This document shows, in pieces, positions 42,160 to 51,425 of a stretch of DNA of 64,000 bases (the first letter of the stretch is position 1; the number at the start of each line of letters is the position of its first letter). Origin of the DNA: Pectinatus sottacetonis (GTDB lineage: Bacteria > Bacillota > Negativicutes > Selenomonadales > Selenomonadaceae); assembly GCF_015732155.1 (NCBI RefSeq), contig NZ_WIQK01000001.1:1-64000 (forward strand), read 5' to 3'. Below the pieces are notes generated by a model. The model was not told where the DNA came from. It did no database searches and saw only the letters and a list, made by a program, of their open reading frames with translations. The translations under genes were made by a program, and so were the position numbers.

Positions 42160-42460
42160 TTTATAATTGGATAAGTTAAAGCTTATGATGCAGAGTAGTA
42201 AATTTTAGGCATTTTTCAGAAAGCCAATGGCTGATGTGAATTGGTATTTGTCTTTTTTGAACTCACTGCTGAAGCTTCCGATAAGGAATTTAATATTAAA
42301 TATATTTTATTAATATTAAAAAAACCTTAGCCTGCTCAATATAACAACAGGTTGATCGGCGTTAATAGCGTTAATATTTTAAGAGGGCAGTTTTACTGTC
42401 AATCAGGGTGGTACCGCGAAATTTTCGTCCTTGGCTTAAAGCCAGGGATTTTTTATTTTT
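42160..42460 (+). promoter_or_regulatory. T-box leader of leuS (Leu, CTC specifier)
   Basis: The invariant T-box AGGGTGGTACCGCG lies at 42405-42418. A terminator hairpin (CCTTGGC with GCCAGGG, 42429-42447) and T-run follow. Upstream, AGAGTAGTA and CAGAAAGCCAATGGCTG match stem I blocks. The specifier loop reads GAACTCACTGCTG, giving CTC (Leu) at 42262-42264, consistent with leuS. Uncharged tRNA-Leu should stabilise the antiterminator and raise expression. With the promoter at 42121-42149, this fills most of the 485-base gap before leuS. Confidence 0.93.
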
Positions 42461-42477: not shown

Positions 42478-44946
42478 ATGGATAAATATTGCCCAGGTAA
42501 AATCGAAAAAAAATGGCAGGATAACTGGGAAAGTAATGGGGTATATACTACTAATGAAGATGATACCAGAGAAAAATACTATGTTTTGGAAATGTTTCCT
42601 TATCCATCAGGCAATCTGCATATGGGACATGTGCGAAACTATTCTATCGGTGATGTAATCGCTCGTTTTAAAACTATGCAGGGATTTAATGTACTACATC
42701 CTATGGGCTTTGATGCCTTCGGCATGCCTGCAGAAAATGCAGCTATAAAGCATGGTGTTAAACCTTCTGACTGGACATATTCTAATATGGATAACATGAT
42801 CCGCCAGCAAAAGCAGATAGGACTGTCTTACGACTGGAACAGATTAGTCCAGACCTGTAATCCTGATTATTACCGCTGGACTCAATATTTATTTGAAATT
42901 TTTTATAAAAAGGGTCTTGCTTATAAGAAAAAAGCTACCGTTAACTGGTGCGATTCCTGTAAAACAGTCTTAGCTAATGAACAGGTAATTGATGGCTGCT
43001 GCTGGCGATGTGATTCTCCTGTAATAAAAAAAGACTTGGAACAATGGTTTTTAAAAATAACTGATTATGCCGATGTTTTATTAAAAGACTTAAAAAAATT
43101 ACCCAATTGGCCGACCCGTGTCAAAACAATGCAGGAAAACTGGATAGGACGCAGTGAGGGGGCAGAAATAACTTTTACTGTTCCTAATTTCAAGGAAAAT
43201 ATTACTGTTTATACAACAAGACCTGATACTGCTTTCGGCATCAGTTATATGGTTTTAGCTGTTGAACATCCCTTAGTAGAAAAACTTATAAAAAATTCTA
43301 TTAATAAAGAACAAATACATAAATTTATTGAACATGTCCATAATCAAAGTGAATTGGAACGGACTTCGGATAAATTAGAAAAAGAGGGTATTTTTACCGG
43401 AGCATATGCCATCAATCCTTTTAATGGTGAAAAAGTTCCCATATGGATTGCCAATTATGTATTATTTGAATATGGGACAGGCGCTGTTATGGGTGTTCCT
43501 GCACACGACAGCCGTGACTGGATGTTTGCCGGTAAATACAATCTTAAGAAAAAAATTGTTATAACTAACGAAGACAAATCTTTATGCCTTGAAAAAATGA
43601 GCGATGCTTATACTGATGATGGTATATTAATAAACTCTGGTGAATTTACTGGTATGAATAACCGCCAGGCAATTCCGGCAATAATTGACTGGCTGGAAAA
43701 AAACAAATGTGGTAAACGTCGTATCAATTACCGCCTGCGTGACTGGCTTATCTCACGTCAGCGTTACTGGGGGGCCCCCATCCCTGTGATTTACTGCGAA
43801 AAATGCGGTACTGTCCTTGTGCCAGAAAAAGATCTTCCTGTTAAGCTACCAGAAGATGTTAAATTTGAACCTGGTGTCGTTTCACCTTTGGCCCACAGCA
43901 GTGATTTTGTAAACTGCACTTGTCCTAAATGCGGCGGACCCGCAAAACGAGAAACAGATACAATGGATACTTTTATATGCTCCTCCTGGTACTACATGCG
44001 CTTTGCCGATGCCAAAAACACTACGGCTCCATTTGATAAAAACATCGTAAATAAGTGGCTTCCTGTAGATCAATATATTGGCGGCATAGAACATGCCATT
44101 TTGCATCTTCTTTATTCCAGATTTTTTACTAAAGTTTTAAAAGATGCCGGGCTGGTAAACTTTGATGAACCTTTTACCAACCTTTTAACTCAAGGTATGG
44201 TTATAAAAGATGGTTCTAAAATGAGTAAATCGCTCGGCAATGTTGTTTCTCCAGAAGAAATAATCAGTAAATACGGCGCTGATACCGCCCGCTTATTTAT
44301 ATTGTTTGCTGCTCCGCCAGAACGTGATCTCGAATGGAGTGACCAAGGTGTTGAAGGTGCGTGGAGATTTTTAAATCGCATTTGGCGCATAGTCCTCCAT
44401 TATGAAAATATGGTAAAAGATAACCCTGCCATTAATACTGCCATTTTAAATAATAAAGAAAAAGACCTGCGCCGTATTGTCCACACAACTATAAAAAAAG
44501 TGACTGAAGACATTGCAGTCCGTTCCAACTTCAATACAGCTATAAGTTCCATTATGGAACTAGTAAATGCCTTTTATTCCATACGAGAAGAAAAAATACA
44601 ACCGGGTCTTATAAATGAAACTATTAACTCCTTATTACTGCTTTTAGCTCCCTTTGCTCCGCATATCACAGAAGAACTTTGGCAGAGAATAGGTCGCCCG
44701 GGTAGTATTCATAAAGCAATATGGCCTAAATATGATGAAAAAGCACTTGCTGCCGACGAATTGGAAATAGTTGTTCAGATAAACGGCAAAGTTCGCGATA
44801 AAATGACCATTGTGGCACAAACAGATCCAAATGAAATAAAAAAACAGGCTCAAACATTAAACCGCATCCAGAAATTAATCCAAGGAAAAAATATAATAAA
44901 AACTATTTATGTGCCTAAAAAAATAGTAAATATTGTCATCAGATAA
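42478..44946 (+). CDS. leuS: Leucyl-tRNA synthetase
   Basis: This 822-residue class I synthetase charges tRNA-Leu. The HIGH-type motif [15 protein letters not shown] lies near residue 41 and the KMSKS loop in [11 protein letters not shown] near 580. An editing domain between them carries [13 protein letters not shown], and the zinc-type cysteines are in [10 protein letters not shown] and CWRCDSP. AAGGAGG precedes the ATG. It is monocistronic, T-box-controlled and followed by a strong bidirectional terminator. Confidence 0.97.
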
Positions 44947-45017: not shown

Positions 45018-46310
45018 TCAGATAGTTACCCCTTCCATGGATTTTTCCAAATAGATTATTTCTTTATTATCATCATATTCTATAAGCTCAGCATATCGTT
45101 CCCAACCAATAAGTAAATCTAATTGTTTTTTTGCCGCTTCTTCTCCTAAAGGTTGTACCAATAATTCTTCAAAAAAATCTATATTCATTTGTCGATTCGA
45201 CTTTGATTGCAGAATACTTATCATTTTTTTTACAAAGGGAACATGTTTCATAATCTGCCGCTTAAATAAATTTTTGCGCTCGAGAACTGTGGCCTGTGCA
45301 AATTCTATACCGTAAGCTGTAAGCTCAATATCACCCTCAGTGACCTTAGTAAAATGCAACAGACTACAGGCATCTATAAGTGGCAGAAAGTCCTCCATAT
45401 CTATAGCAAAACGGTTAGCAAGCTTATATAGATCTACTTTTTCATTCAAATCTTCCAGTAACTCTAAAAAACCAGTAAGTGCTCCAGCAGATACCTGAGG
45501 AATAATCATGTCCTTTTTAACCTGAAGTGCAGTTTCTTCTATCACTGTTTTCTTTTTAGTCATTATTGAATAAATTTCATCTACATACTTTAAAAATTCT
45601 ATTGATTTTCTATCGCGCCAACGTGGCAGAGCTATATCAATATTTCTTATTATTGTCGCTGGTCCCGAAGAAAGTATAATTGCCCTATCAGCCATATATA
45701 CAGCTTCTTCGATCCCATGTGTAATCAAAACTATCGATTTTGTAGGTATTTTCTTTTCTAACCACAATTCCAACAAATCACGCCTTAAATTTTCTGCCGT
45801 TAATACATCAAGTGCAGAAAAAGCTTCATCCATAAGCAAAATATCTGGTTCACTAACTAAAGCTCTGCCAATACCTACACGCTGGCGCATACCACCTGAT
45901 AATTCCTTAGGATATGCATTCTCAAATCCATCCAGTCCCACAATATCAAGAACCTGCATAGATTTTTCTTTCTTGTACTCTAAAGAAATATCTTTTTTTT
46001 CTAAACCAAGCATCACATTTTCTAAAACAGTCAACCACGGGAATAACGCAAATGATTGAAAAACCATTGCTACTCCGGGATTCACACCATTAATTTCATT
46101 ACCAAGGTATGATACCGTTCCTTTTGAACTGGGAATCAGTCCAGCAATTATGCGCAGCAATGTTGACTTCCCAGAACCTGATGGTCCTAAGACAGCCAGA
46201 AATTCCCCTTCTTTTACCTGAAGATTAATATTTTCCAAAACTACAGCATCGTCACTGCCTTTTATCGGGAAATTTTTACCTACTGACTTTAATTCCAGTA
46301 AATTTTTCAT
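45018..46310 (-). CDS. ABC transporter ATPase with AAA-associated C-terminal domain
   Basis: About 430 residues. The ATPase domain shows Walker A GPSGSGKSTLLR, the Q-loop FQSFALFPW, signature LSGGMRQRVGIGRAL and Walker B ILLMDEAFSALD, all intact. The closest named group is the NitT/TauT (nitrate/sulfonate/taurine) type. The last 170 residues form an extra domain of the AAA_assoc_C type. The ATG at 46310 lies about nine bases after AAGGA; an in-frame start at 46331 overlaps the permease end. It is the second gene of the M-box operon. Homology suggests anion uptake, the riboswitch suggests Mg2+; see findings. Confidence 0.85.
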   Translation of the reverse strand: MKNLLELKSVGKNFPIKGSDDAVVLENINLQVKEGEFLAVLGPSGSGKSTLLRIIAGLIPSSKGTVSYLGNEINGVNPGVAMVFQSFALFPWLTVLENVMLGLEKKDISLEYKKEKSMQVLDIVGLDGFENAYPKELSGGMRQRVGIGRALVSEPDILLMDEAFSALDVLTAENLRRDLLELWLEKKIPTKSIVLITHGIEEAVYMADRAIILSSGPATIIRNIDIALPRWRDRKSIEFLKYVDEIYSIMTKKKTVIEETALQVKKDMIIPQVSAGALTGFLELLEDLNEKVDLYKLANRFAIDMEDFLPLIDACSLLHFTKVTEGDIELTAYGIEFAQATVLERKNLFKRQIMKHVPFVKKMISILQSKSNRQMNIDFFEELLVQPLGEEAAKKQLDLLIGWERYAELIEYDDNKEIIYLEKSMEGVTI

Positions 46311-46327
46311 AATCTGCCATCCTTCTT

Positions 46328-48064
46328 TCAATCAACATGATACTTTGTCTGCGCTATATAATATAATCTATGCCAAATAAAACGATTTATTACTACAACC
46401 ATAATGCACATTACAATTATACCCAGCAAAATTTTACTCCAATCACCAAGAGTTGTTGCCATGCTTATATATGCCCCTATACCGGAAGCAGTCAAAACGA
46501 TTTGTTTCCATTTTACTATTTCAGAAATAATACTAGCATTCCATGCCCCACCAGAGGCAGTTATGAATCCTGTCACCAGATAGGGAAAAATGGCTGGCAG
46601 TATGAGCACCCTCCATTTTTTCCATCCTTTTATTCCCAAAACAGCAGCAGCCTCTACTAAATCATTAGGGATACTGGCTGCTCCCGCGATAACATTAAAC
46701 AAAATATACCATTGTGTTCCCAGCATCATTAACACTATCGACCCATATTGAAAATTTATGCCATATTGAATAAAAAGCATTGTAATAAAAGGAAACAGCA
46801 TATTAGCTGGAAAAGAAGATGCCGCCTGTACTAAAGGCTGAATTTTTTGTGACAGCTTCGGTTGCATGCCTATCTTTACTCCTGCTGGTATTGTCCAAAT
46901 AGCTCCCAGTAAAATTGCCATAAAAACACGGGCAGCTGTAAGCAATCCCAGGTTAAAAACATGCCATAATTGGTCAAAACCCATCTCATACAGCATATAT
47001 ACTGCATCTTTTACAGGTATATATATTTCATATAAAAATGCTGCTAAAATAAATATTTTTATTATTGCCTGGAAAAAAGCACTAACTTTTATTTTCTTAT
47101 ATATATCCAGGCTATTTTCTATTCGATCAGATGTTTTTACTATTTTTTTATTTATAAACCGACCTATAGGCATAAAAATTTTTCTATATATCCAGAAAAC
47201 TATAAATGACCTATATAACAGATTATAAACAAATGATGTCGGCTGTTCATTTCCCTTTGAAGATTCTAATTTAAATCTCTGTCCCCATACAACAAGCGGC
47301 CGCCAAAAAACCTGATCCACTAATAAAATCATTATAAGCATAGTAAGCATTGCGTATACCATAGCTCTTATATTACCTGAAGCTGCTGCCACAGCCAAAT
47401 AAGAGCCTATTCCGGGAAGATGAATATCTTTTCCCAGAACACTTATAGCTTCACTGGCCGCCAAAAAAAACCAACCGCCGCCAAATGACATCATCGCATT
47501 CCATATTAATCCTATCATACTAACAGGTAATTCCAGTTTGGTAAATTTTTGCCATTTATTAAAATGAAGCATTTGTGATGCTTCTTCTAAATCCTTAGGC
47601 AGTGTCGTCAACGAATGATAAAAGCTGAAAGTCATATTCCAAGCCTGCCCAGTAAAAATTGCAAAGATTGAAGCACATTCCACACCTAACAAAGTATTGG
47701 GAAATATCGTCATAAAGGCAACTATTGTCGCTGACAAAAAACCCAAAACAGGTATTGACTGCAAAATATCTAAAAGAGGAATCATTATTTTACCAGCCCA
47801 TTTACTTCTAGCTGCAATATAACCATAAATAAATGTAAATAAAAAAGAAAAACCTAGCGCAATGAACATTCGCAGCAATGATCTTCCCGCGTAATAGGGA
47901 AGCATTTCAGGTGATAGACTTATGGAGATATCGGTATCAAGGGAAAATGGGATATCCATCCCCATACTTAACTTTAAAACAATATAAAAAATCATAAAGA
48001 CAACAGCTAATACTACAATGTCCATTGCAGTAAATTTTCGTTCTACCAAGGTTTGAGTAAACAT
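46328..48064 (-). CDS. ABC transporter permease with two fused permease domains
   Basis: This 578-residue membrane protein contains two copies of the binding-protein-dependent permease domain, residues about 60-260 and 350-570, each with about five to six helices and an EAA-type loop (for example DLEEASQMLHFNKWQKFTKLELP and DLVEAAAVLGIKGWKKWRVLILP). This duplicated layout is that of the 'anion transport, duplicated permease' family. AGGAG lies before the ATG. No substrate-binding protein is beside it. It is the first gene after the M-box, so it should be expressed when Mg2+ is low. Confidence 0.85.
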   Translation of the reverse strand: MFTQTLVERKFTAMDIVVLAVVFMIFYIVLKLSMGMDIPFSLDTDISISLSPEMLPYYAGRSLLRMFIALGFSFLFTFIYGYIAARSKWAGKIMIPLLDILQSIPVLGFLSATIVAFMTIFPNTLLGVECASIFAIFTGQAWNMTFSFYHSLTTLPKDLEEASQMLHFNKWQKFTKLELPVSMIGLIWNAMMSFGGGWFFLAASEAISVLGKDIHLPGIGSYLAVAAASGNIRAMVYAMLTMLIMILLVDQVFWRPLVVWGQRFKLESSKGNEQPTSFVYNLLYRSFIVFWIYRKIFMPIGRFINKKIVKTSDRIENSLDIYKKIKVSAFFQAIIKIFILAAFLYEIYIPVKDAVYMLYEMGFDQLWHVFNLGLLTAARVFMAILLGAIWTIPAGVKIGMQPKLSQKIQPLVQAASSFPANMLFPFITMLFIQYGINFQYGSIVLMMLGTQWYILFNVIAGAASIPNDLVEAAAVLGIKGWKKWRVLILPAIFPYLVTGFITASGGAWNASIISEIVKWKQIVLTASGIGAYISMATTLGDWSKILLGIIVMCIMVVVINRFIWHRLYYIAQTKYHVD

Positions 48065-48140
48065 TTTTACACTCCTCCCAGAAAAATATTATAAAATTTT
48101 TAGTCCAGGTCTCGCCATCCTCCATATTTACTCACCTCCC

Positions 48141-48350
48141 AAAAAAATAAACCCTTCTACAAAAGCGCAGAAAGGTTCAGTAATCCCTCAATTCAATCGT
48201 AAGAGCTTTAGCACTGCATAACGTAGAGTAAATAAATTACTCAGCTATCTTGGGTAATACCTTATTTCGATAATACCTGTCCTACCCATTGGCATCTCTC
48301 GATGTTTCCGGGCAATAGCCTGTGTTTATTGCAGGAACCTCACCTAACAA
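48141..48350 (-). promoter_or_regulatory. M-box (ykoK) magnesium riboswitch with terminator
   Basis: On the minus strand the M-box blocks appear in order: GTTAGGTGAGG (48348-48338), TGCCC, GCCAATGGGT (48293-48284), ATAAGGTATTACC (48265-48253), GTGCTAAAGCTCT (48214-48202) and ACGATTGAA (48200-48192). These match the Bacillus mgtE M-box closely in spacing and sequence. A terminator follows at 48177-48141: AACCTTTCT pairs with AGAAGGGTT, then a T7 run. In the known family, Mg2+ binding favours the terminator, so the downstream ABC genes should be on in low Mg2+. With its promoter this accounts for the 382-base gap from 48065 to 48446. Confidence 0.93.
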
Positions 48351-48376
48351 AATTATGCAATTTTTGATGTCGATTC

Positions 48377-48405
48377 ATATTACCACCAGAAAAAATAAAA
48401 TGCAA
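48377..48405 (-). promoter_or_regulatory. Promoter of the M-box ABC operon
   Basis: TTGCAT (48405-48400), 17 bases, TAATAT (48382-48377), about 30 bases before the M-box. Confidence 0.7.
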
Positions 48406-48446: not shown

Positions 48447-48875
48447 TTAAGAACCAGCTATGATTTTTTGACATTCCCTGCAATATCCATATAACTCCAA
48501 ACGATGGCTCACTACAGAAAACTGTGTATCTTGTTCTACTTCTTTTTCAAAATCATATAAGGGACAATTTTTTAAAAAAATAACTTTCTTACAGCGCAGG
48601 CATATTAACTGATGCCGATGTGCAACAGGTTTCAATCCATAGACAGATTTTTCATTAAAAAATGATGTTTTCACCGTAATTGCTTTTGCTGTAAACTTTT
48701 CCAGAATCCTATATACTGTGGATAAATTTACTAAAGAATCGTTTTTTTTCATTAGTAGATAAATATTTTCTGCGGTCTGAGGATTTTCACTATTTTTTAA
48801 AATAGTCAACAGTAAATTGCGTTGTTTTGTACTTTTCATCCCATTTTTATTAAGATATTCTTTATAATCGCCCAT
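48447..48875 (-). CDS. zur: Fur-family repressor, probable Zur
   Basis: 142 residues. A winged-helix DNA-binding half (STKQRNLLLTILK, LSTVYRILEKF) is followed by the dimer/metal half. HRHQLICLRCKKV and YGYCRECQK give the structural zinc cysteines and regulatory histidines. It sits in the znuC-znuB operon, which favours zinc sensing (Zur) over iron or peroxide sensing. AAAGGT lies before the ATG. It should bind DNA with zinc and shut the uptake genes. Confidence 0.85.
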   Translation of the reverse strand: MGDYKEYLNKNGMKSTKQRNLLLTILKNSENPQTAENIYLLMKKNDSLVNLSTVYRILEKFTAKAITVKTSFFNEKSVYGLKPVAHRHQLICLRCKKVIFLKNCPLYDFEKEVEQDTQFSVVSHRLELYGYCRECQKIIAGS

Positions 48876-48910
48876 ATCTACCTTTCCTTAACACACTACC
48901 AAAAATATAA

Positions 48911-49711
48911 TTAACTTCTTTTCTTTATTTTATGTTTATAAAATAAAACTATCAATAGTAAAAGTACAGAATTCAGTGCTATTATTCCACCTGGAGCTGC
49001 ATTTATCCAGTAAGATATAATTATCCCAGCAAATATATCTATATAGCTGAATAATATACCATATAATAAGGTTTTCTTAAAACTGACTTCTAGCTGCAAT
49101 GCCGAGGCAATAGGTAATGCTATCAATGAACTAATTACAAGGATACCTACGATCCTTATAGAGATAGAAATTGTTGCCGCAACCAAAATGGCAAACAGAT
49201 AGTTTATTACTTTTACATCCACACCTGCTACTGTTGCGCCTTCTTCATCAAATACAATAAACATTAGCTCATAATAATAACGATAAACTAAAAACAGGGA
49301 AATAATGCTAAAAAACAGTACCCAATAAAAATCAGATTTCGTAACCGTCAAAACACTGCCAAACATCAATGAATCAATATTTGCATGTACCATACCAGAA
49401 CTTAGTAAAGTAATTGCTATACCGATCGAAAGAGATAAAATAACCACCAGGATTAATTCAGCATAAGTTCTAAAATGCTTACGCAGCCACTCAATTATCA
49501 CACTAAAAATAGAAACAACTACAAACGCACTTAACACTGGATTTTGCTGGAATAACATTCCTACCGAAATTCCTGCTAAAGAAGCATGCGATAATGTATC
49601 CCCCATCATCGAATATCGTCTTAATACAAGAAACATCCCAATTACCGGGCACAGGACCGCTATAAAAATTGAAACAAGAAACGCATTTTGCATAAAATTA
49701 TAAGTCAACAT
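48911..49711 (-). CDS. znuB: Zinc ABC transporter permease
   Basis: This 266-residue permease has about seven to eight membrane helices and the family blocks LRRYSMMGDTLSHASLAGI and, later, VVKNV-type IVGILVISSLIALPIASA. It belongs to the ABC-3 group for Zn2+ and Mn2+ import. It overlaps znuC by 14 bases and lies 35 bases upstream of zur. The Zur neighbour argues for zinc. Confidence 0.9.
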   Translation of the reverse strand: MLTYNFMQNAFLVSIFIAVLCPVIGMFLVLRRYSMMGDTLSHASLAGISVGMLFQQNPVLSAFVVVSIFSVIIEWLRKHFRTYAELILVVILSLSIGIAITLLSSGMVHANIDSLMFGSVLTVTKSDFYWVLFFSIISLFLVYRYYYELMFIVFDEEGATVAGVDVKVINYLFAILVAATISISIRIVGILVISSLIALPIASALQLEVSFKKTLLYGILFSYIDIFAGIIISYWINAAPGGIIALNSVLLLLIVLFYKHKIKKRS

Positions 49712-50378
49712 CAGTTATGTCTCCTAAATTATTTTTTATATTTTCCTTTATATACTGCTTAGGCAGGCATAAATGTCCTCGCCCTTTTTCAATATGATAT
49801 ATTATAGTAGAATTTTTCACAGCTGCCCGCAAATTATGTTCCACACAAATGATTGTCATTTTTTGCTTATTGTTTAGTTCAGCTAAAAGATTATATATTT
49901 CTGTGCGGCTTATACTATCTATTCCATTCGATGGTTCATCTAAAATCAACAAATCAGGATTACCTAAAAGAGCGCGGGCAATAAACAGTTTTTGGCATTG
50001 ACCACCGGAAAGCTGCCCAATAAGAGTTTCCTGTTCATTTTCCAAATTAAGTAATTTTAGAACTTGTGATATATTTTTATAATTTCTTTTTTTCTTTACT
50101 GCCTTATAGCAGTATAAAACTTCCCGAACTGTTATGGGAAAATGCGTATTCAACTGATTAAACCGTTGCGGTACATAAGCAATATTTTTAAAATCACTAT
50201 TTATTATTCCTGATGTAGGTATTATCAGCCCTAAAATTAAACGTATTAAAGTACTTTTACCTGAACCATTTACACCTAATATTGAAACATATTCTCCCGT
50301 TTGCAGCGTAAAATTTATGTCATTTAATAAATTAGGTTTATTGCTGTAGGAAAAATATAAATGTTCTATTTTTAACAT
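49698..50378 (-). CDS. znuC: Zinc ABC transporter ATPase
   Basis: About 226 residues from the ATG at 50378 (MLKIEHLYFSY), just after GGGGGA; the longer start at 50402 reads through the ribosome site. Walker A GVNGSGKSTL, signature LSGGQCQKLFIARAL and Walker B LLILDEPSNGID are intact. It energises ZnuB and leads the minus-strand znuC-znuB-zur operon. Confidence 0.92.
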   Translation of the reverse strand: MLKIEHLYFSYSNKPNLLNDINFTLQTGEYVSILGVNGSGKSTLIRLILGLIIPTSGIINSDFKNIAYVPQRFNQLNTHFPITVREVLYCYKAVKKKRNYKNISQVLKLLNLENEQETLIGQLSGGQCQKLFIARALLGNPDLLILDEPSNGIDSISRTEIYNLLAELNNKQKMTIICVEHNLRAAVKNSTIIYHIEKGRGHLCLPKQYIKENIKNNLGDITDVDL

Positions 50379-50414
50379 AAAATCCCCCATTAATCTTGAC
50401 ATTTCTTTTTTATT

Positions 50415-50461
50415 ATTATATCTTTATATTAGTGTTAACGCAAATGCGAATTATTTGCATT
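50415..50461. promoter_or_regulatory. znuC promoter with overlapping Zur-like box
   Basis: A minus-strand promoter TTGCGT (50443-50438), 17 bases, TATAAT (50420-50415) drives znuC. A near-palindrome AATGCGAAT-T-ATTTGCATT (50443-50461, 9-1-9, one mismatch per arm pair) touches its -35. It also lies before a TATAAT at 50475-50480 that could serve znuA on the plus strand. Its layout is that of Fur-family operators, and its place between the two zinc genes suggests Zur binding to both. Confidence 0.65.
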
Positions 50462-50501
50462 AACTGATATTATGTATAATTTGAAAGGTGGAAACACAAT
50501 A

Positions 50502-51425
50502 ATGAAAAAAAAGATACTCATTTTTGCCCTTTCGGCATTATTTCTCTTTGTGGTATCCGGTTGTTCCTTAAATCATTCCAAACCAGAATCAGCAGCTACT
50601 CCTGATTCCAATAAATTGAAAGTAGCCGTTTCTTTTCAAGCTATGAAAGGACTAACTGAAGCTATTGGCAAAGATCACATAACTGTTGAATCTGTAATTC
50701 CTGACGGCAGCGAACCACATAATTTCCAGCCAACTGTAAAAAATTTAATGGCACTTCACAACGCAAAATTATTTATCTACAATGGTTTTGGACTAGAAAA
50801 TGCATGGCTGAATAAAGTTACTAATGCTGCATCGGATAACAAGGATCTTGTATTAGTAGAAGCTTCAAAAGGGGGAAAACCATTATTACTTAATACCCCT
50901 GAATATAAAGGAAAAAATGTTGATGATCCACATTTTTGGGTAAGTATTAATGGTTCTGAGCTTGAAGCTAAAAATATAAAAGATGCCTTGGTTAAAGCAG
51001 ATCCTAAAAACAAAGCAGATTATGAAAAAAATTACCAAACATTTTATAATGAACTTGAATCTCTGAAAAAAGAATACAGTAAAAAATTTGCTGATTCCAA
51101 AAGAAAAGATTTTGTTACCGGTCATGCTGCCTTCGGTTATCTGGCAAAAGATTTTGGGTTAGAACAAAAAAGTATATCTGATGCTCTTCTTTCAGGAGAA
51201 CCCAGTGCTAAAAAATTAAAAGAACTGACTGATTACTGTAAAAAGAATCAAGTCACTACAATATTTGTTGAAGATATGGTAAGCCCTAAAGTCTCAGAAA
51301 CATTAGCCAAAGAAGTTAATGCCAAGGCCGTTAAAATCTACACCTTGGAAAGCTCTCCTGATAAACTCAGTTATATAGACGCCCTGCGGTATGACTTGGA
51401 ACAAATATATAAAAGCTTGAATTAA
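50502..51425 (+). CDS. znuA: Zinc-binding lipoprotein of the ABC transporter
   Basis: 307 residues. A lipoprotein signal ends in VVSGC. The cluster A-I fold is shown by PDGSEPHNFQPT (first metal histidine), DDPHFWVS, VTGHAAFGYLA and IFVEDMVSPK. It delivers Zn2+ (or Mn2+) to ZnuBC. The ATG at 50502 lies after AAAGGTGG; an in-frame start at 50472 is less likely. It is divergent from znuC across a shared operator-like site, and ends at a terminator. Confidence 0.9.
   Translation: MKKKILIFALSALFLFVVSGCSLNHSKPESAATPDSNKLKVAVSFQAMKGLTEAIGKDHITVESVIPDGSEPHNFQPTVKNLMALHNAKLFIYNGFGLENAWLNKVTNAASDNKDLVLVEASKGGKPLLLNTPEYKGKNVDDPHFWVSINGSELEAKNIKDALVKADPKNKADYEKNYQTFYNELESLKKEYSKKFADSKRKDFVTGHAAFGYLAKDFGLEQKSISDALLSGEPSAKKLKELTDYCKKNQVTTIFVEDMVSPKVSETLAKEVNAKAVKIYTLESSPDKLSYIDALRYDLEQIYKSLN

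Follow-up and report, generated by a model that had tools for sequence, protein, structure and literature searches.

Why does a Mg2+-sensing RNA precede a transporter that homology would name for the uptake of nitrate, sulfonate or taurine? The question is raised by a locus of Pectinatus sottacetonis, a member of the Negativicutes, at positions 46,328 to 48,405 of a 64,000-nucleotide stretch of its DNA (contig NZ_WIQK01000001.1; the whole stretch is called the window). There, an M-box magnesium riboswitch is followed by the genes for a two-domain ATP-binding cassette (ABC) permease and its ATPase. A first-pass annotation of the sequence had suggested that the transporter might import Mg2+ or a Mg2+ complex, or at least respond to Mg2+ scarcity. 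It seems probable, with some reserve, that the operon encodes a Mg2+-repressed transporter that supplies the cell with Mg2+ under scarcity. This reading is favored because of the M-box score, the terminator, the wide recurrence of the pairing, and the Mg2+ genes under other M-boxes. Of the earlier suggestion, Mg2+ control together with a role in Mg2+ supply is thus the part retained as the best reading, whereas Mg2+, or a Mg2+ complex, as the cargo is what we infer for a permease that by sequence and fold alone looks like one of the nitrate/bicarbonate type.

The leader and the operon in the window

The match to the M-box family (RF00380) covers all 169 model positions (1-169) with an E value of 2.6e-33, and its score lies far above the gathering score of 44 bits, which bears out the complete M-box that had been claimed. 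It is the single M-box found in the 2.69-Mb genome. The claimed intrinsic terminator was also recovered, just 3' of the aptamer, where an expression platform is expected. Four terminator-like sites were present in the 700 nt scanned, compared to a mean of 0.3 in shuffled sequences, and the hairpin at 48179-48148 has by far the longest stem; the 60-nt region around it folds with -16.7 kcal/mol. The claimed promoter is the weakest element of the locus: a promoter-like sequence can be seen by eye (Table 1), whereas a sigma-70 consensus scan does not list a minus-strand site at 48405-48377. The permease and the ATPase have the domains expected from the first description, and the ATPase gene lies outside the region that was described at that time. 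The relatives of the ATPase begin to align only at about residue 8, which makes the ATG at 46310 its probable start. Between the terminator and the permease lies a short upstream open reading frame (uORF), which overlaps the permease start out of frame.

Table 1. Features of the M-box operon, in window coordinates.
Feature	Position	Strand	Remarks
M-box (RF00380) magnesium riboswitch aptamer	48186..48358	-	full length, cmscan 146.7 bits
Intrinsic terminator (expression platform)	48148..48179	-	14-pair hairpin and T run
Promoter-like sequence, weak	48377..48405	-	TTGCAT 48405-48400, extended -10-like TGGTAATAT 48385-48377, by eye
Short uORF MEDGETWTKN..., 62 codons	47937..48125	-	Shine-Dalgarno (SD)-like GGGAGG 48140-48135, acidic start
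Two-domain ABC permease, 578 aa	46328..48064	-	2 x BPD_transp_1, Pfam 3.4e-25, ATG at 48064
ABC ATPase, 437 aa from TTG	45018..46331	-	ABC_tran 7.8e-33, C-terminal AAA_assoc_C (PF09821) 1.1e-34

Recurrence of the pairing

A search of 380 genomes of the class, in which the permease was counted at E <= 1e-25, revealed 75 M-boxes in 60 genomes and the permease in 26 genomes. In 18 of these 26 the M-box lies directly upstream of the permease on the same strand, and the 18 pairings are spread over nine families (f1, f8, f11, f17, f25-f28, and f30). The distance between M-box and permease start is 121-195 nt in the 17 loci with an intact permease. The remaining locus, in the congener G143 (L066 4995-6819), was left out, as its permease is broken into two frames; the M-box, the uORF, and the ATPase remain. 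G143 also possesses another M-box, situated before mgtC, as well as a gene for a Mg2+ P-type ATPase. The matching ATPase follows the permease in all 26 loci (one is cut by the contig end), while the neighbors of the pair change from locus to locus. The congener G141 has neither the M-box nor the permease. Chance was considered as an explanation and rejected: given 75 M-boxes spread over 60 genomes, each several Mb in size, our own arithmetic yields about 1e-4 per genome for an M-box within 0.5 kb upstream on the correct strand, compared to 18 of 26 observed.

A hairpin with a T run equivalent to the window terminator is present in all 18 class leaders. In 12 of them, a segment around the 3' end of the aptamer pairs with the 5' arm of the terminator better than in 95% of shuffles; in the leaders of the window and its three congeners the pairing did not exceed this level. 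Another candidate antiterminator, built from the conserved 3' tract of the aptamer and the terminator arm, was no better than shuffles (12 leaders found by motif) and was discarded.

The pairing extends beyond the class. In a phylum-wide sample of 398 genomes, with the permease counted at E <= 1e-60, 25 genomes contain the permease. It is immediately preceded by an M-box in 16 of them, among which are all 11 from family f48; the f48 permeases are only 36-38% identical to that of the window. A third set (genome_contigs) consists of the best 80 relatives by score in named genomes and is not a random sample; the sets partly overlap (L118 and G073, for example, are repeats). Ten of these 80 have an M-box upstream on the same strand, namely, Pelosinus, two Paenibacillus, an Alicyclobacillaceae metagenome-assembled genome (MAG), a Bacillota MAG, two Clostridium, an Anaerolineae MAG, and two Nocardia. 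The two Nocardia share the arrangement M-box, mgtC, permease, ATPase, and their mgtC and permease genes adjoin or overlap. Among the best relatives listed, cyanobacteria, actinobacteria, proteobacteria, and Bacillota are represented. The permease tree comprises 111 sequences, of which 36 carry the M-box label; this label requires 10 changes, at least eight of which are forced by well-supported branches. For GC-rich loci the choice of the open reading frame was often wrong, and tblastn ranges were used for the alignments there; the long branch of row L205 in the tree stems from a wrong reading frame and carries no meaning.

Other genes under M-boxes and magnesium genes nearby

The first-pass annotation had proposed a survey of M-boxes in the class together with their downstream genes. 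Ten of the 75 M-boxes have the next long open reading frame more than 440 nt away (eight upstream members of tandem pairs, plus those of G316 and G090), which leaves 65 leaders. Eighteen of these precede the ABC permease and 47 precede other genes, the Pfam assignments of which are MgtE_N (22), E1-E2 ATPase (11), Nramp (10), MgtC (2), CorA (1), and pseudouridine synthase (1). Hence, Mg2+ homeostasis genes, or members of families that include them, make up 46 of the 47. The exception is L110 (G305 C1:1223308-1223476), where the next long open reading frame encodes a pseudouridine synthase. Tandem M-boxes, about 250-310 nt apart, were seen before MgtE_N-type or Nramp genes in L003, L004, L005, L007, L008, L009, L017, and L023, which belong to f8/g55 genomes, Pelosinus-type genomes, and G318.

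MgtC is a member of M-box regulons and is not known to transport Mg2+ itself. The presence of M-box-mgtC arrangements in these genomes is thus a point for an operon that is regulated by Mg2+ and carries some other helpful cargo, e.g., a Mg2+-chelating anion, another cation, a compensating solute, or a phosphate-like anion. The fold and the sequence of the permease, which are of the nitrate/bicarbonate kind, point in the same direction. Yet none of the binding proteins that anion import would call for was found near the 26 pairs, and most of the other M-box partners in the class are Mg2+ transporters or MgtE_N proteins. We regard such a cargo as unlikely, while taking it seriously.

In a few relatives a Mg2+ gene lies close to the pair. 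In a Mycobacterium sp. (L173 21-4123), at a locus that lacks an M-box, the permease is immediately preceded by a Mg2+ P-type ATPase gene (TIGR01524, 850 bits versus a cut-off of 610.75). One Paenibacillus has a CorA gene next to the pair, and Streptomyces orinoci and G314 have an Nramp gene in its vicinity. The inventory of Mg2+ transporters comprised 27 genomes, i.e., the 26 class genomes with the permease and G141. Above the cut-offs, the MgtE channel domain was found in none of them, Nramp in 25, and a Mg2+ P-type ATPase in four. The window genome has CorA, two Nramp-type genes, and the ABC pair, and of these only the ABC pair is preceded by an M-box.

The transporter and the search for a binding protein

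The only Pfam family that matches the permease at E <= 0.001 is BPD_transp_1, and models of known Mg2+ transporters (PF01544, PF01769, P-type ATPase, PF01566) gave no match at this threshold. We take the permease to be a member of COG4986, the name of which fits a two-domain permease. BPD_transp_1 in the permease and ABC_tran in the ATPase are the domains of NitT/TauT-type ABC importers, and there is a profile match to CmpB/NrtB. This generic similarity is the point for an ordinary importer of nitrate, sulfonate, or taurine that carries its M-box by accident. Against it stands the recurrence of the pairing in many lineages. Moreover, the permease scores far below the cut-offs of the NCBIfam equivalogs (ntrB 75 versus 209, TauC 33 versus 342, and SsuC 23 versus 347 bits), and the search beside the pair yielded no NMT1-type binding protein. 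This possibility is close to refuted.

The binding protein was sought in several ways. All matches listed for NMT1_2 and NMT1 (PF13379, PF09084), with one of the lists ending at about E 1e-5, are more than 40 kb away from the 26 class permeases. Members of these families occur elsewhere in most of the 27 genomes (NMT1_2 in 23, NMT1 in 25); the window genome has NMT1 in five places, the three listed being at 1.01, 1.82, and 2.32 Mb, and G345, which is 99% complete, has neither family. A profile of 12 NMT1-type proteins, which scores its own members with 159-447 bits, gave only four weak matches of 13.7-26.5 bits (in L068, L069, L060, and L073) in six-frame translations of the 26 loci with about 5 kb on each side. 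For 129 of the 149 neighbors at the class loci, the first 25 of the 157 Pfam families include none of the NMT1 type, and SBP_bac_3, of the amino-acid type, occurs in three. No sulfonate operon is apparent beside the pair among the first 25 families of the class neighbors and of the wider neighbors. Transporter genes of relatives under unrelated regulators, together with sulfonate genes, had been named in the first-pass annotation as an outcome that would refute its suggestion, as had a covariance score below threshold; neither was seen in the neighbors examined and listed or in the M-box score.

Modeled with AlphaFold2 from 70 sequences (predicted local distance difference test, pLDDT, 87.6; predicted template modeling score, pTM, 0.87), the permease has a type I importer fold in each half, and the halves match CmpB and NrtB. 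Profile searches of the PDB at E <= 0.001 yielded only CmpB, NrtB, and OpuA. The best full-length structural match is FbpB, a fused ferric permease (Z 20.1, 420 residues, 5.5 A). FbpBC works together with a binding protein, in contrast to the window pair, for which none was found. FbpBC of Thermus thermophilus (9j4r) resembles the window pair in its fused two-domain permease, which is that of a metal importer, and differs in sequence (11% identity). NrtBCD and CmpBCD (8w9m, 9u9z, 9ua1) share the fold and a detectable sequence similarity of permease half and ATPase with the window pair, which differs by the fusion of the halves in one chain, by AAA_assoc_C on the ATPase, by M-box control, and by the binding protein, which was not found.

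The match to FbpB could also indicate that the pair imports another divalent metal (Mn2+, Fe2+, or Co2+/Ni2+) and that these M-boxes sense or tolerate that metal. A manganese-type branch of M-boxes in mycobacteria is described in the available part of PMC12810186, which also cites a study linking the M-box to other divalent cations. Against this, the window M-box fits the family consensus over its full length, a zinc-type system with a Fur-family regulator adjoins the operon, and the window genome has a strong Nramp match. Import of another metal is therefore considered rather improbable.

For the ATPase, the AlphaFold2 model has a pLDDT of 90.5 and a pTM of 0.62. Judged from the modeled secondary structure, its C-terminal part looks like two winged-helix-like units. 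Among 14 control genomes, AAA_assoc_C was found in Synechococcus elongatus and Sulfolobus acidocaldarius. The apparent winged-helix-like units and the failure to find a binding protein would be compatible with an exporter, or with a signaling or regulatory ATPase module in which AAA_assoc_C senses a cytosolic state. However, both halves of the permease have the type I importer fold, and a Mg2+ exporter that is induced by Mg2+ scarcity makes little sense, so that we give this explanation very little credence.

A short acidic uORF between terminator and permease

The uORF of the window is not an isolated case. A strict rule (ATG, Asp or Glu at codon 2, a further acidic residue at codons 3-5, and an SD sequence) finds such a uORF in 17 of the 18 class leaders with the permease, compared to 0.11 expected from shuffles. 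The other class M-box leaders contain it in 9 of 47 cases (expectation about 0.7), distributed over the next genes as follows: mgtC 2/2, MgtE_N 5/22, Nramp 1/10, P-type ATPase 1/11, corA 0/1, and other 0/1. Starts of the encoded peptides include MDDGES, MDSDSS, MDCDGN, MDTDGP, MDADGS, and MEDGET. Two M-box/mgtC leaders have the short acidic open reading frames MDDGGRQQ (L085) and MDDGSIRK (L087), and in both a Mg2+ P-type ATPase gene follows mgtC.

Codon 2 is acidic in all 16 distinct sequences with the motif, as the rule demands; two of these stem from leaders without an M-box. Of the 69 pairwise codon differences at this position, 54 are synonymous and 15 exchange Asp and Glu, while codons 7-9 vary freely. 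The synonymous changes point to the peptide rather than the RNA as the constrained feature. The acidic uORF has also been kept in two of the eight permease leaders without an M-box (G346 and G347; MDDGGS).

An acidic or proline-rich start and a good SD sequence before a Mg2+ transport gene characterize leader open reading frames of the mgtQ/mgtL type; the uORF has the acidic start and the SD sequence, and the gene behind it is a putative Mg2+ transporter gene. For Salmonella mgtQ, Asp2 and Glu5 are needed for the translation of mgtB, which is attributed to destabilization of the ribosome (PMC8092293, in the part available), and for mgtL, prolines and acidic residues make elongation Mg2+-dependent (PMC11552253, likewise). 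As far as these accounts go, mgtQ of Salmonella and mgtL of E. coli and Salmonella resemble the uORF in being short open reading frames with a strong SD sequence and acidic residues near the start, situated before a Mg2+ transporter gene; the uORF, in turn, comes after an M-box and a terminator and, in the window, overlaps the transporter start. Mycobacterial leaders also combine an M-box with a translated small open reading frame (PMC4974804, PMC12810186). Their genes are mgtE, pe20, and rv1535, the peptides are different, and an acidic Met-Asp-x-Asp start is not described in the available parts of these reports.

Evidence that weighs against a role in magnesium supply

Several observations weigh against a role of the pair in Mg2+ supply. 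Eight of the 26 class permeases have no upstream M-box. Three of the respective genomes have an M-box elsewhere, before an Nramp gene (G276), mgtC (G347), and a P-type ATPase gene (G346), and five have none (G098, G259, G277, G331, and G345). No other riboswitch was found in these eight loci, apart from one T-box that belongs to another gene. An upstream M-box is also lacking for 9 of the 25 permeases of the phylum sample and for 70 of the best 80 wider relatives, including all of the last 20 loci of that list. Recurring Mg2+ genes are rare beside the wider loci: among the first 25 of 144 Pfam families in 109 neighbors, the only Mg2+-related ones are MgtC (2) and cation P-type ATPase (2). Nor is the pair the sole possible route for Mg2+, as 26 of the 27 inventoried genomes have CorA.

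With respect to the protein, fold and sequence are closest to bicarbonate and nitrate permeases, and neither a Mg2+-binding motif nor a metal site was identified in the permease. Type I ABC importers normally require a binding protein. An importer without one would be odd for this type, and an unlinked binding protein may exist in most of the genomes. With respect to the leader, no antiterminator pairing was found for the window, where 255 of 300 shuffles equaled or surpassed the best candidate. The uORF rule was derived by inspection of the very leaders that were then counted, and several of the genomes with the uORF are close kin. The motif is rare outside the class, where a strict or similar acidic uORF was found at 2 of 79 loci from genome_contigs (L171, and L118, itself once more a genome of the class) and at 1 of 23 phylum loci (L199), counts that omit L165 (its match starts at base 31) and in which the gene start was misplaced in several loci and L220 gave the ATPase. 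The acidic uORF therefore appears to be mainly a feature of the Negativicutes. The leader of L199, with M-box and permease outside the class, has an acidic, proline-containing open reading frame that starts with MDADPEPQ....

Relation to previous work

The first-pass annotation had regarded the pairing as undescribed, which does not hold. PMC5746004 (2017) reports, in one sentence of its available text, an M-box in the 5'-UTR (untranslated region) of the Bifidobacterium breve ABC transporter Bbr_0406-07, the permease of which is COG4986, and its authors suggest a role in metal ion homeostasis. This is the same arrangement, an M-box before a two-gene ABC transporter with a COG4986 permease; the account, as available, concerns one expressed leader in one species and contains no cross-genome comparison, uORF, or functional test. 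In a literature search largely at the level of titles and abstracts, it was the only description found of an M-box with this ABC permease, and no account was found of the breadth of the pairing, the missing binding protein, or the acidic uORF behind the M-box. We place the system within Mg2+ supply under M-box control, a known theme, to which it would add an unusual transporter with Mg2+ as its putative substrate. A precedent is provided by the Nramp-related transporters of Clostridium acetobutylicum (PMC4072509), which are from a family presumed to transport other metals, were found under M-boxes, and were hence suspected of Mg2+ transport. They belong to another protein family and, according to the part of the paper available, complementation followed, whereas the present pair is known from genome sequences. 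A Bacillus subtilis mgtE yloB yfjQ triple mutant described in that paper requires about 50 mM Mg2+ in rich medium.

Neighboring features

The M-box operon is adjoined by a zinc-type uptake cluster (48447-51425), in which a Fur-family regulator, an ABC-3 permease, and an ATPase are encoded on the minus strand and a ZnuA-type binding protein divergently. G142 and G144 have similar genes next to their M-box operons. On the other side of the operon, a T-box leader (RF00230, 98.7 bits, gathering score 93) is located at 42176-42435 on the plus strand, and the long open reading frame just after it (42478-44946) reads as leucyl-tRNA synthetase. In L065 (7059-8912) and L064, an APC-type permease with weak K_trans similarity, presumably KimA-like, is encoded divergently to an ABC pair without an M-box.

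A possible mechanism with two gates

For M-boxes, the available part of PMC4072509 states that Mg2+ leads to compaction of the aptamer, formation of the terminator, and the end of transcription. By analogy with such characterized M-boxes, at high cytosolic Mg2+ the aptamer of the window would compact, the terminator at 48179-48148 would form, and transcription would halt before the genes. At low Mg2+ the aptamer would open and RNA polymerase would read through. The read-through mRNA would then present a second gate, the short open reading frame with the start Met-(Asp/Glu)-x-(Asp/Gly) and a good ribosome-binding site, which may act as do mgtQ and mgtL. At high Mg2+, ribosomes on the uORF would traverse the permease start in another frame, and at low Mg2+ they would tend to drop off after the acidic start, freeing translation of the permease. 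Permease and ATPase would import Mg2+ or a Mg2+ complex at the expense of ATP and without an NMT1-type binding protein; the inward direction and the substrate are what we infer from the regulation. The complete picture is a widespread, binding-protein-free ABC importer for Mg2+ that in the Negativicutes is gated twice, at transcription by the M-box and at translation by the acidic leader open reading frame, which would sense Mg2+ through ribosome stability, with a second gate that can outlast the first. It is put forward tentatively, with the balance somewhat against its being right in every part.

Implications

Relatives of the permease are widespread and generally named for the transport of nitrate, sulfonate, or "anions," and many of these annotations would therefore change if the pair supplies Mg2+. 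One entry of this kind, "ABC-type anion transport system, duplicated permease component," is included in a table of essential genes of Liberibacter crescens (PMC4837290, in the part available). The available text of PMC4072509 lists three earlier families of Mg2+ import proteins, CorA, MgtE, and MgtA/MgtB, and adds Nramp-related genes. A binding-protein-free ABC importer would represent a further kind of Mg2+ import with a different source of energy. In addition, a metal-sensing RNA and a ribosome-destabilizing leader open reading frame in tandem would constitute a two-step regulatory logic. Because the same pairing with an M-box recurs in distantly related bacteria, the transporter probably represents an unrecognized kind of Mg2+ uptake system.

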